From: Deltaproteobacteria bacterium RIFOXYA12_FULL_61_11
GTDB taxonomy: Bacteria > Bdellovibrionota_F > JAHFAK01 > YA12-FULL-61-11
Assembly: GCA_001799195.1 (NCBI GenBank)
Contig: MGSU01000239.1
Location: 1 to 6,915 of the forward strand
Reading direction: 5' to 3'
DNA: 6,915 nt
How positions within the stretch are numbered: the stretch's first letter is position 1; every line of letters begins with the position of its first letter. This document shows, in pieces, positions 1-6,915 of this stretch. The notes under the pieces were generated by a model that worked only from the letters and a program-made list of their open reading frames with translations, ran no database searches and had not been told where the DNA came from. The position numbers were made by a program, and so were the translations under genes.

Positions 1-1184
1 ACCTCCTCCTCCGCACCTCCTGGTTGTATGGACCGATCGGCAGGAACTTCGTCCTCGGCATGGCCGCGCGGCTGGGCCGAGGTGAGACCGTCACCGTGGT
101 CGACGATCAGCTCGGCACCCCCACCACGACCAGGCAAGTCGCCGACCTCACGCTCGCTCTGCTCGAACGAGGGGAACGAGGCCTCTACCACCTCGCCGGC
201 GAAGGCGTGACCAGTTGGTTCGGCTTGACCAGCGCCGTGGCCGAGGAACTCTCGCGACAAGACCAGGTCAGGTCCTGCCCGAGCAACGCCTTTCGCCTCC
301 CCGCCCAACGCCCGGCGAACTCCGCTCTTTCCACGGCCAAACTCACGGCCCTCCTCGGCCGGAGCCCAGGCCACTGGCGCGAACAGCTCCGGGGAGTCCT
401 GACGGCAGCCTCTCTCCTTCTCCTCGTGCTGGTGTTCACCAACTGCGCTGGGACCAAGAAAGAGCAGGTCGAGGACCCCGACATCCTCACCCGGGTTGCC
501 GAAGACTATATCCGGAAGAACGAAAACCTGCGGGCCCTCCAGGCTCTCAGCCAAGCGGAACAACTCACGCCCGACGACGTGCGCGTGGCAAAGCTGGCCG
601 GCATCGCCCACTTGGCCCGCGGCCAATACGCGACCAGTGAAACCTATCTCCTGCGGGCGCTGGCCTTGACCGACGAACCCAGCGAGATCCACCTCCTGCT
701 CTCCCACCTCTATCTCGTCCTGGGTCGCTGGGAGCAGGTCATCAGCCAGTGCGAAGAAGCCCTGCGCGATCCCCTGACTCCGTTCCCGCACATCGCCTAC
801 AACAACATGGGTTGGGCGTACCACCAACTCGGCGACCACGTCCGCGCGGTCGAAAACTTGCGCATCGCGGTGGCCAACCGCGCCGGATACGTCCTGGCCT
901 TGCACAACCTCGGTCTGGTCTACCTCAAGCTGAAACGCTACGCTCTGGCCGGCAATGCCTTCGTCAAGGCCCTGCGTGCCTGTCAGCAGTGCGAAGCCCC
1001 GGTCCAGTCAGAGCTGTACCAACGCCTCGCCTCGGCCTTCAGCCTGATCGGCAACACCGAAAAGGCCCTCGAGTACTACCGTCGCTGCCACGACCTGGCT
1101 CCGGCCGCGCCACCTGGGAAGGAATGCGCCCGTATGGCCGTGCTCCTCGATCCGACCTTCCAACCGGCCAAGTCCCAACCGTGA
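1..1184 (+). CDS. rfbD: dTDP-4-dehydrorhamnose reductase C-terminal half, continuous in frame with a TPR-repeat domain (5' end outside window)
   Basis: The reading frame is open from the first complete codon (position 3) to TGA at 1182-1184, so the true start lies upstream. The TTG at 24 is only the Leu of RTSWLYG and not a start. Residues encoded by about 3-401 match the C-terminal half of RmlD, which reduces dTDP-4-keto-rhamnose to dTDP-L-rhamnose with NAD(P)H in the cytoplasm for surface polysaccharide. Visible RmlD signatures are RTSWLYGPIGRNFV, VVDDQLGTPT, GLYHLAGEGVTSW and RPANSALSTAKL, then the usual terminal WREQLRGVL. The catalytic YxxxK and the NAD(P)-binding Rossmann fold would be upstream. 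A normal RmlD stops near 400, but here no stop occurs and the frame enters a hydrophobic segment and TPR repeats. This may be a real fusion, an unrecognised second start, or an indel in the sequence. The RmlD identity is firm; the single-polypeptide status is not. Confidence 0.85.
   Translation, partial: LLLRTSWLYGPIGRNFVLGMAARLGRGETVTVVDDQLGTPTTTRQVADLTLALLERGERGLYHLAGEGVTSWFGLTSAVAEELSRQDQVRSCPSNAFRLPAQRPANSALSTAKLTALLGRSPGHWREQLRGVLTAASLLLLVLVFTNCAGTKKEQVEDPDILTRVAEDYIRKNENLRALQALSQAEQLTPDDVRVAKLAGIAHLARGQYATSETYLLRALALTDEPSEIHLLLSHLYLVLGRWEQVISQCEEALRDPLTPFPHIAYNNMGWAYHQLGDHVRAVENLRIAVANRAGYVLALHNLGLVYLKLKRYALAGNAFVKALRACQQCEAPVQSELYQRLASAFSLIGNTEKALEYYRRCHDLAPAAPPGKECARMAVLLDPTFQPAKSQP
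399..1184 (+). other. TPR-repeat, lipoprotein-like module (PilF/PilW-like) in the 3' part of the rfbD reading frame
   Basis: After the RmlD-like end, the frame encodes a hydrophobic stretch (VLTAASLLLLVLVF) followed by TNC-AG with Cys at 444-446. This resembles a lipoprotein signal peptide, but the lipobox (F-T-N-C) is poor because position -1 is Asn instead of Gly/Ala/Ser. About six consecutive 34-residue TPR-like units follow, with helix signatures such as NNMGWAYHQLGDHVRAVENL and HNLGLVYLKLKRYALAGNAF. The arrangement resembles PilF/PilW-type lipoproteins, which help assemble type IV pilus secretins, but generic TPR lipoproteins look the same. The module would sit in the periplasm, anchored either by a lipid or by an uncleaved membrane helix joined to RmlD. 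No ATG, GTG or TTG codon lies in frame just upstream of the hydrophobic segment. CTG at 399 is the only nearby candidate, with GGGGAG at 391-396 too close to be a good ribosome site. The protein-protein-interaction role is inferred from TPR families. Confidence 0.7.
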
Positions 1185-1951
1185 TGCGAGGTCCGAGCAC
1201 CCCCCTCCGCACCCACGCCTATGTCCTCCGACTCACCCCCTATGCCGAGAGCGACCTGATCGGCCAGATCCTCACCCAGGACCGCGGCAGAATCTCCGTC
1301 GTGGCCCGCGGAGGCCGCCGCAGCACCAAGCGGGGATTGGTGTTGCTGGATTATTTCCTCTGCTTGGACCTCCACCTCGACTACAAGAACGCTGGAGACC
1401 TGCACGCCGTGCGCGAGGCAGCCTTGGTCGAAGATCACACGGCGCTCTGTTCCAACCTCGGTTCGCATCTGGTCGCTTCCTGTTGCACCGAGCTATGCCT
1501 CCTGGCCATTCAACCGGAACAGCCCGGAGAACGGCTCTTCCTGCTCCTGCGTTACCTGCTGCGCGGCCTGGCCGCAGGGCAGCCGTCGGCGACCAGCTAC
1601 CTGGTGTTCCTGGCCAAGCTGCTCAAGATCCTCGGTCTCGGCCCTCCACGCGATCGCTGCCCCGGCTGCGGTCTCGGACTCACCCAGGGGGGGGTGGTCC
1701 ATCAAGGCGAGCTGTGGTGTTCGGCCTGCGTGCCCCTTGCCCAGACGCAGCCCGTCCTGGATCTAGCGAGCCAGACGGTGCTCCAGACTCTGTTCGACCG
1801 CACTCCGGGGCAACTCCGCGACGAGGGTTTGCATACCCGCCCTGCCGATCCACAACTCCGCGAGGCCTTGGAATGCCTTCTCCTCCCGCACCTCTCGGCC
1901 CCGCCGAAGAGCCTGCGGCAGCTCCGCGAGTACCTGCAACGGCCACGGTGA
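1184..1951 (+). CDS. recO: DNA repair protein RecO
   Basis: The 255-aa product matches RecO, which with RecR loads RecA onto SSB-coated single-stranded DNA and anneals complementary strands in RecFOR recombinational repair. The N-terminal OB-fold (about 5-80) shows the family pattern YAESDLIGQILTQDRGRISVVARGGRRSTKRG. A helical middle follows, then a zinc-binding pair C159-P-G-C162 and C179-S-A-C182, and the C-terminal KSLRQLREYL. Length is typical of the family. ATG at 1184 shares its A with the TGA of the preceding frame (TGATG), which suggests translational coupling; GTG at 1181 is also in frame. No strong Shine-Dalgarno is visible. A run of eight G (1687-1694) lies between the two CxxC halves, yet the frame is intact on both sides. 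Transcription probably comes from upstream of the window. The usual recO neighbours era or glyQS are absent here. Confidence 0.95.
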   Translation: MRGPSTPLRTHAYVLRLTPYAESDLIGQILTQDRGRISVVARGGRRSTKRGLVLLDYFLCLDLHLDYKNAGDLHAVREAALVEDHTALCSNLGSHLVASCCTELCLLAIQPEQPGERLFLLLRYLLRGLAAGQPSATSYLVFLAKLLKILGLGPPRDRCPGCGLGLTQGGVVHQGELWCSACVPLAQTQPVLDLASQTVLQTLFDRTPGQLRDEGLHTRPADPQLREALECLLLPHLSAPPKSLRQLREYLQRPR

Positions 1952-1962
1952 GTTTCGTCCCC

Positions 1963-1978
1963 TGGCACTGCTCTTGCT
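1963..1978 (+). promoter_or_regulatory. sigma-54 (RpoN) type -24/-12 promoter upstream of the 202-aa gene
   Basis: TGGCAC at 1963-1968, five bases, then TTGCT at 1974-1978. This matches the RpoN consensus TGGCAC-N5-TTGCW at every consensus position, with the diagnostic ten bases between the GG and GC. It sits 11 bases after the recO stop and points at the gene starting at 2045. It predicts a transcript start near 1989-1990 and a leader of about 55 bases. I found no clear enhancer-binding-protein site within recO, so the activator is unknown. The match is visible in the sequence; activity is inferred. Confidence 0.6.
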
Positions 1979-1992
1979 GTGGAACCCTTCGA

Positions 1993-2008
1993 TCCCGCCC
2001 CGGCGGGA
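1993..2008 (+). other. GC-rich hairpin in the recO to 202-aa gene gap
   Basis: TCCCGCC (1993-1999) pairs perfectly with GGCGGGA (2002-2008) around CC, in practice six pairs with a four-base loop. No T-run follows, so it is not a standard intrinsic terminator. If the -24/-12 promoter is used, the hairpin lies at the very 5' end of that transcript and could stabilise it. It could also mark the 3' end of the recO transcript. Confidence 0.4.
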
Positions 2009-2044
2009 CAGGCCAGTCGCAGGAAACAACCCGAGGAGATTCCT

Positions 2045-2653
2045 ATGCGCAGCGCACTCGTATTGTTTCTCCTATCTCTTCCGTGGTCCATTTTCGCCTC
2101 GTCCATACCCTCCACACACGAGCACCAGTTCGAGACCTTCGCTACTGTCGAGCAATGCTATGAAGCCCGAAAGCTATTCCGGCAAGACATCATGGATGCG
2201 GCCTTCGAGCAGACCCGTGGTCTTGAGGAACAGCTTAACCAAGAACTTCTCGAGCAGGGCATCGATTACGCCATCAAGCTGCGCCCCGAGCGCATCGACT
2301 GTGTGCCGGCCCTGCAGAACGAGCTTGGACCAGCCGCGATACCAGCGACCCTGGCCGCAGAATTCATCCTGGTGATTCCCAGCTTATTCCTGGTCGCCCC
2401 TCCGATGCCCTATTATTTGGCTGGGATGTATGTCTTCGCACTCAGTAACCTACTCGACAAGGTTCATGCCCAAGACCGTCCAGGCCTGCTGCAGCGGCTG
2501 CATCACGCAACCGAGAACCTGCTCGAACGCATGACCGCACGTGCGAAGATCATGGAGGAAAAAATGAATCACCGCTTCGACGTCATGTACGAGGTCGCCC
2601 GTCCGATCACCGGCTATACTTTGATCGCGGTGCTCGCCGTGGAGCGGGGTTGA
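2045..2653 (+). CDS. Unrecognised 202-aa exported or membrane-associated protein
   Basis: I do not recognise this family. ATG at 2045 is chosen because GAGGAG (2033-2038) lies six bases upstream and because it opens a clean signal peptide, MRSALVLFLLSLPWSIFA, with likely cleavage near residue 18. An in-frame GTG at 1979 would place a charged tail ahead of that signal and is less likely. The mature part has a helical, acidic and Gln-rich segment (about 30-80), two cysteines (C38, C86) that could form a disulfide in the periplasm, and a long hydrophobic region (about 97-137) able to form one or two membrane helices. An amphipathic, basic helical tail with Met and His follows (about 145-182), and then a short hydrophobic end. 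Codon choice is somewhat more AT-rich (TTA, ATA, TAT, TTT) than in recO or gpmI. It stands alone, behind a sigma-54-like promoter, and converges on the minus-strand operon. Function unknown; periplasmic or inner-membrane location is inferred. Confidence 0.75.
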   Translation: MRSALVLFLLSLPWSIFASSIPSTHEHQFETFATVEQCYEARKLFRQDIMDAAFEQTRGLEEQLNQELLEQGIDYAIKLRPERIDCVPALQNELGPAAIPATLAAEFILVIPSLFLVAPPMPYYLAGMYVFALSNLLDKVHAQDRPGLLQRLHHATENLLERMTARAKIMEEKMNHRFDVMYEVARPITGYTLIAVLAVERG

Positions 2654-2674: not shown

Positions 2675-4084
2675 TCAGCCTTCCTTCTTGCTCTTCTTGC
2701 CGTCGAAGTCGGGGAACAGGGTCGGCAACAGCTCGAGACCTTCTTCGGCCTTCCGTTTCGAGGGCTGCTCTTCGCCGTAGTCCCGCTCGATCTCTTCCTT
2801 CGCCCGCCGGTAGGTTTCCTCGAGGATCTCTTTGATCGACAACGTGCTGAAATCCTCGAGAGTCAAATCCTTGTAGTTCTTACCCCGCCCCTCCGCCGCA
2901 ACCTTGGACTGTTCGAGAATACACCGCTTCTCCTCGTCGGAGAGCACCTGTTCCCGCTCCGCCATCTGGAGGAGATGGGCGACGTTGAGCGTCCCTAATT
3001 CCTGCTGCAGCTCGGCGGCTAAGGACCGGCGATCGTTGGTCTCGGCCCGGTCGAGCACCCCCGCGTTCATGCGAGCCCGCCCTTCCTTGGTCGCCAATAA
3101 TCTGGTCCGGACCTCGGGTACCATGGAGAGCAGGTGTTGCATCTGACGTTCGTCGATGCTGATCAATTCCGTGGCCGACACCGCTCTGACCGTGGCGGAA
3201 GGCACGGCATGATCGAGCAGGGACATCTCGCCAAAGTACTCGCCCTCGTACAAACGGTTGAGGACGATCTTGGTTCCCTCGACCGTGCTGCTCACCTCGA
3301 CCTCACCGCGGCTGATGACGTGCAGGGCGAGTTGTTGCTTGGCTCCTTGGGCAAGGATCACCTCTCCGGGTTTGTAGAACTTCAGGTGAAAGCGGGGGAA
3401 GGAGGACCGCAGGCGGGCCAATTCCTCACCTTTGAGCAAACCCGAGGCGGCGAGACGCTCGGCGATCAATTCCTGGCGATACAAGGTCCCCACCAACGTC
3501 CGCGCTTCTCGCCGGGCAGCAACTTCGGAACGCAGGAACTCGAAGGGCACCTGTAGCACCTTACAGGCCTGGAGCGCAGTGCAGAACTCGGTCCGCACCT
3601 CGGTGTAGAGACCGGTGATCCCAAGGAGCGCCGGGGCTTTGCTGAGCTCGAGGAGAATCTCTTCCTCGAAGACCGAGTAGTGATGCCGTTTCACCTCGCC
3701 TTGGAGAAGGATCAGCAAGGTGGGGGCTTTGTCCCCGCGTTGGTACAACAACGAATAGGGAGAGAACTGCTGCAGCCAGGTTTTCCCACGCACGGCGTCC
3801 TGCTCGCGCAAGGTTCCCAACAAGGGTATGGAAGTACAGTACTGGCGCCACTCGTCCTGGTTCGGCACGCGCCGCCGATCCACCGCGCCCGGAGAACGTT
3901 TTCGGGTCGAGGAAGTACGTTGTTCGCCGAGGGCTCGATCGATGCCGTCCAACCGTTGGAGCAGGTCCCCCCGCTGCTTCTCCACATAGGCAGTCACCTT
4001 GGGGTCCGGAGGTCGATCCGGCTGACCGCGGACCGAACTGAGCAAGTCCCGCAAAGTTCTGTTGAGCTGGTCGAGCTTCTTCAT
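2675..4084 (-). CDS. Tandem cyclic-nucleotide-binding-domain protein without a DNA-binding domain
   Basis: The 469-aa product starts at ATG (4084-4082 on the minus strand), with GAGGGG (4094-4089) four bases upstream. A charged, probably helical N-terminus (1-80) is followed by a degenerate cNMP-binding beta-barrel (about 85-205, with a YQRGDKAPTLLILLQGEVK-type strand pair). A second, clearer cNMP domain covers about 215-330: FYKPGEVILAQGAKQQLALHVISRGEVEV, then the phosphate-binding-cassette region GEYFGEMSLLDHAVPSATVRA at 281-301. In CRP-type domains the cassette reads PRxAT with an Arg that holds the cyclic phosphate; here that position is Ser296, so cAMP/cGMP binding may be lost or altered. 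No helix-turn-helix follows; the C-terminal 140 residues are charged, helical and end in a Lys-rich tail. There is no signal peptide, so the protein is presumably cytoplasmic. It lies ten bases after the beta-barrel gene and is co-transcribed with it. It is probably a regulatory or scaffold protein, not a transcription factor. Confidence 0.85.
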   Translation of the reverse strand: MKKLDQLNRTLRDLLSSVRGQPDRPPDPKVTAYVEKQRGDLLQRLDGIDRALGEQRTSSTRKRSPGAVDRRRVPNQDEWRQYCTSIPLLGTLREQDAVRGKTWLQQFSPYSLLYQRGDKAPTLLILLQGEVKRHHYSVFEEEILLELSKAPALLGITGLYTEVRTEFCTALQACKVLQVPFEFLRSEVAARREARTLVGTLYRQELIAERLAASGLLKGEELARLRSSFPRFHLKFYKPGEVILAQGAKQQLALHVISRGEVEVSSTVEGTKIVLNRLYEGEYFGEMSLLDHAVPSATVRAVSATELISIDERQMQHLLSMVPEVRTRLLATKEGRARMNAGVLDRAETNDRRSLAAELQQELGTLNVAHLLQMAEREQVLSDEEKRCILEQSKVAAEGRGKNYKDLTLEDFSTLSIKEILEETYRRAKEEIERDYGEEQPSKRKAEEGLELLPTLFPDFDGKKSKKEG

Positions 4085-6590: not shown

Positions 6591-6684
6591 ACGAGTCCCC
6601 GGTCACTTCACCACCGCCATGGACCCACAACGACACCGCGCGTTGCCCGCTTCGAGCTTTCTCCATAATGAGCAATTAATATTT

Positions 6685-6714
6685 TTGATATATATTTCAA
6701 TATACTGGTAGCAT
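6685..6714 (+). promoter_or_regulatory. Possible sigma-70-type promoter in the AT island
   Basis: TTGATA (6685-6690) is a near-consensus -35. After 18 bases comes TAGCAT (6709-6714), preceded by TGG as in an extended -10 element. The predicted start is near 6721, with a leader of about 86 bases to the ATG at 6807. TATACT at 6701-6706 is an alternative -10 without a matching -35. The -35 also forms half of a palindrome, TTGA-N8-TCAA (6685-6700), that could bind a dimeric regulator. Confidence 0.4.
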
Positions 6715-6745
6715 CTCACACCCCAAGACCGCTCCCCTTCCCATC

Positions 6746-6761
6746 TGGTACGAACCTTGAT
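6746..6761 (+). promoter_or_regulatory. Weak sigma-54-like -24/-12 element before the last gene
   Basis: TGGTAC (6746-6751), five bases, then TTGAT (6757-6761) matches the -24/-12 layout with correct spacing. However, the conserved GC of the -12 box is GA. It would start transcription near 6773. It is a competing hypothesis to the sigma-70-like promoter just upstream. Confidence 0.25.
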
Positions 6762-6790
6762 CCAGAGAGGGCCAACGAGCAAAGGATCAA
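6757..6790 (+). repeat. Inverted repeat TTGATCC...GGATCAA in the leader of the last gene
   Basis: TTGATCC (6757-6763) and GGATCAA (6784-6790) are perfect seven-base inverted repeats separated by 20 bases. They end seven bases before the ribosome site. They could form a leader hairpin or a spaced operator. Confidence 0.45.
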
Positions 6791-6806
6791 CCCATCGGAG
6801 GACGGT

Positions 6807-6915
6807 ATGTTGAAGATCATCGTTGCAATGGTGACGGCGCTGTTCATCCTCGGCGGGAGCGCGTGGGCGCAGAGCGAGGAGTGCAACCCCGAAGTGCAGG
6901 ATTGTTACTGGTACG
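6807..6915 (+). CDS. N-terminus of a small exported Cys-containing protein (truncated by window end)
   Basis: Only 36 residues are visible. ATG at 6807 has GGAGG (6797-6801) five bases upstream, a strong ribosome site. The product opens with a classical Sec signal peptide: MLK, then a hydrophobic core IIVAMVTALFILGG, and likely cleavage at SAWA|QS after residue 21. The mature start, QSEECNPEVQDCYWY, has two closely spaced Cys in an acidic and aromatic context, suggesting a disulfide in the periplasm or outside the cell. The family cannot be recognised from this fragment. It has its own promoter region and is not in an operon with gpmI. Confidence 0.75.
   Translation, partial: MLKIIVAMVTALFILGGSAWAQSEECNPEVQDCYWY

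Follow-up and report, generated by a model that had tools for sequence, protein, structure and literature searches.

Genes around the site

The window analysed here is a stretch of 6,915 nt from Deltaproteobacteria bacterium RIFOXYA12_FULL_61_11, and the features that bear on the present question are collected in Table 1. The ATG of recO overlaps the TGA of a preceding rmlD-like/TPR frame, and the sole real gap between these genes and the next one, which encodes a protein of 202 amino acids, is formed by the 93 nt from 1952 to 2044. A sigma-54-like site occupies positions 1963-1978, 11 nt from the end of recO and 66 nt from the start codon of the 202-aa gene. A longer version of this gene, starting at a GTG at 1979, was rejected with a coding score of only 1.1.

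The 202-aa protein has a signal-peptide-like N-terminus and, in addition, a further hydrophobic stretch. No Pfam or NCBIfam family match was obtained for it, no homologue was found in 84,980 species genomes or in 40 relatives, and its AlphaFold model (pLDDT 42) is unusable. An earlier note had located the site between recO and an exported protein of unknown kind, and this description is borne out by the TIGR00613 match of recO and by the exported-type character of the orphan, which lacks a family. Convergent to the orphan gene lies a gene for a 469-aa protein (2675-4084, minus strand) with matches to the cyclic-nucleotide-binding domain (PF00027). The matches of gpmI are at most 57% identical, which indicates that there is no close relative sharing the neighbourhood. 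In a genome of the same class (G001), recO is likewise followed by an exported-type gene, and no sigma-54 motif site was found downstream of recO there.

Table 1. Features at the recO end and around the putative sigma-54 site (positions in the window)
Feature	Position	Strand	Basis or remark
recO	1184..1951	+	TIGR00613, 74.2 bits over cut-off 48.7; ORF
-24 element TGGCAC	1963..1968	+	sequence
-12 element TTGCT	1974..1978	+	sequence; core PWM 21.3 bits
Predicted transcription start	1989..1989	+	C of the -12 GC (1977) plus 12, from sigma-54 geometry
Short GC hairpin TCCCGCCCCGGCGGGA	1993..2008	+	close to the predicted 5' end; without U-run
Ribosome-binding site GAGGAG	about 2033..2038	+	sequence
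202-aa orphan gene, presumed target	2045..2653	+	ATG 2045; coding score 28.8

Motif and leader

The site (TGGCACTGCTCTTGCT) carries the -24 GG and the -12 GC at the correct spacing on the plus strand and falls within the pattern TGGCAC-N5-TTGCW, as the motif TGGCAC-N5-TTGCT with exact GG/GC spacing had been described before. The -24 element is preceded by a C, and the consensus G after TGGCAC is replaced by T. The hairpin next to the predicted 5' end is not an intrinsic terminator because the U-run is lacking, and it is not a repeat, no second copy being present among the loci examined; the structure of the leader is no greater than that of shuffled sequences (z 0.40). A search for a sigma-70-like promoter in 1850-2700 found none. 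Near the end of the window, an AT-rich tract (6661-6807) contains a weak sigma-70-like match at 6685-6714, and a sigma-54-like site with two mismatches (6746-6761) lies about 45 nt upstream of a further gene of signal-peptide type, which leaves the window.

Sigma-54 machinery and the set of sigma-54-like sites in the genome

The organism encodes both sigma-54 and its activators: one strong rpoN (PF04552, 217.6 bits) and about 26 sigma-54 activator AAA+ domains (PF00158) above 110 bits were detected. Among the matches listed (loci L001-L115), about 30 sigma-54-like sites lie 29-53 nt before start codons, with a sharp peak at 35-41 nt. The DNA upstream of this set is AT-rich, on average about 60-70% and up to 90%, a character that generic upstream regions of the genome do not share. 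An exported-type N-terminus, defined as a strongly hydrophobic one and used as a proxy for signal peptides, occurs in 22/30 target genes of the set vs 34/117 other called genes (Fisher p about 1.5e-5), and the targets are mostly exported-type or lipoprotein-like genes.

G001, the one genome of the same class that was examined (36% GC in the loci covered), contains 153 sites vs 23 for the control, and many of these sites also precede exported-type proteins. Together with rpoN, the activators and the set of about 30 sites, these counts indicate that this class uses sigma-54 widely. At three loci of G001 (L198, L199 and L219) a near-identical short ORF, MKRAFITEHGPLVRRLSEL, lies behind sigma-54 sites, always at 47 nt, and may be a leader element that is mobile or repeated. 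Another exact site of the genome under study, in L003:1501-1580 (G000:C101:3569), has an AT-rich upstream tract and is followed within about 60 nt, without an ORF, by a terminator-like hairpin and T-run; it is a candidate for a site that drives a small RNA via sigma-54.

Number and placement of the sites

The genome searched comprises 4.64 Mb in 342 contigs. The exact motif occurs 8 times in it, and so does the reversed pattern; with one mismatch there are 137 motif sites vs 172 for the control, and the window itself holds 2 matches with at most two mismatches vs 2.7 expected. The raw genome-wide count was rejected as evidence since it equals the reversed control, and placement was therefore used instead. 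A simple codon-usage gene caller served to classify 101 sites carrying no more than one mismatch, the one-mismatch sites being drawn from the first 100 places among the 137 in the genome. The simplicity of this caller, which overlooked recO in the window, makes coding calls approximate; with the same caller applied to the controls, 0/8 exact sites lie inside called genes and 7/8 lie 20-100 nt before a start and face the gene, against 6/8 genic and 0/8 at that distance for the reversed pattern.

The fairest control kept both boxes and altered the spacing alone (TGGCAC-N(6-13)-TTGCW, eight spacings). It yielded 22 exact sites when pooled (2.75 per spacing), 20 of them coding and 2 placed 20-100 nt before a start. 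Two upstream sites over eight wrong spacings imply about 0.25 chance sites at the right spacing, compared with the 7 seen, so that location upstream of genes and orientation toward them are beyond chance.

Position of the window site within the set

The core PWM score of the window site (21.3 bits) is near the top of the range across the 30 high-confidence sites of the genome (11.1-22.7 bits), a rank owed in part to its exact match. Its 40 upstream nucleotides are 35% AT vs mostly 60-90% in the set, and its 66 nt to the start compare with the 29-53 nt noted above. Another exact site, L004, shares the AT-poor upstream DNA and the long start distance, and so do both wrong-spacing chance sites located upstream of genes. 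The window site thus has the GC-rich context and distance that are the profile of chance sites, which, like the equality of raw count and reversed control, speaks for an accidental motif.

The main rival explanation takes up this point: the motif would be fortuitous, and the 202-aa gene would owe its transcription to read-through out of the rmlD/TPR-recO operon. The two genes are on the same strand across a short gap, and read-through is possible because no terminator was found between them; it may act alone or alongside a promoter. Against a chance motif, two sites of the AT-poor, long-distance class were seen while about 0.25 are expected at the right spacing (P about 0.03), from which the chance that the window site is accidental is roughly 1 in 5 to 1 in 8. 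Moreover, the bases of the spacer and the two that follow the site played no part in selection, and they appear to match the matrix of the genome's other sites in the case of the window site, less so for L004, and the downstream gene belongs to the exported-type class that the sigma-54 set mostly heads. A chance motif combined with read-through is judged unlikely.

The search for an enhancer

So little DNA separates the site from recO that any enhancer would have to be located within this gene. The gene yielded no recognisable activator site, and no enhancer motif shared upstream of 38 sites rose above shuffled sequences. The earlier note had suggested that recO be scanned for a repeated enhancer site; the scan turned up a single repeat, CARCTCCGCGA, present three times at 1811, 1853 and 1919 with in-frame spacings of 42 and 66 nt. 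It was rejected as an enhancer, as it encodes QLR(D/E) and as, of its 37 copies in the genome (3 of them in recO), none was seen close to the other sigma-54-like sites listed; the repeat is explained by QLR codons.

Sigma-54 binding sites that are unproductive are known in general. That the holoenzyme binds here without productive transcription, or that the site is silent or regulatory at the end of the recO operon, agrees with the failure to recognise an activator site, but is very improbable for a site directed at a gene that has a good ribosome-binding site and lies at a workable distance, in a genome rich in activators.

Proposed function of the site

Taken as a whole, the sequence features suggest that 1963-1978 is probably a genuine -24/-12 sigma-54 promoter of the 202-aa gene, atypical within a large set. 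The claim that it is a functional promoter stands as the most likely reading, in view of rpoN, the activators, the set of about 30 sites and the exported-type target; the missing AT-rich tract and the longer distance count against it. From the site we infer the start point, the dependence on sigma-54, an activator and the conditional expression of the gene. In the mechanism envisaged, sigma-54 RNA polymerase would bind the -24/-12 elements, an enhancer-binding protein acting from upstream, probably within recO, would remodel the closed complex into an open complex, and transcription would begin about 1989, so that the exported protein would be transcribed as a single gene.

Relation to known sigma-54 systems

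Sigma-54-like sites have been reported to be enriched by position, that is by orientation and distance, and not by number, and a link has been drawn between sigma-54 and the exterior of the bacterial cell, including lipoproteins (Francke et al., 2011, PMC3162934). The present case agrees with these classical -24/-12 promoters in motif, spacing, orientation, position before the start and exported- or lipoprotein-type targets, and in this genome, too, the count is uninformative and the placement informative. It differs in the deep, sparsely sampled lineage, the orphan target and the activator site, which was not found.

In the PEP-CTERM/PrsR system, sigma-54 promoters precede single PEP-CTERM export genes at a mean distance of 71 (SD 38.5) (Haft et al., 2006, PMC1569441). 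The window site resembles them in standing before a single exported-protein gene, and its distance is inside their range; it differs in that no equivalent of their shared upstream motif 1 was found. Membership in this regulon was rejected: no exosortase (PF09721) was found in the genome, which is 87% complete, and the 202-aa protein has no PEP-CTERM family match. As no exosortase is detectable, the set of this genome is not a PEP-CTERM system.

Probably the site is real, yet it is an ordinary case within a large sigma-54 set; taken alone, it adds a further predicted sigma-54 promoter ahead of an orphan exported protein. We tentatively suggest, as a possibility short of an even chance, that sigma-54 may serve exported proteins and lipoproteins broadly in this class, as a near-default promoter system with many tens of promoters that are marked by an AT-rich tract and followed about 37 nt downstream by a start codon, the window gene included. 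In context, the site points to a sigma-54 set of unusual size in front of genes for exported proteins, in a lineage that is deep and sparsely sampled. The association of sigma-54 with the cell exterior known from published work is thereby extended, and the genome-wide rule combines the motif, the AT tract and a start codon at a distance of about 37 nt.
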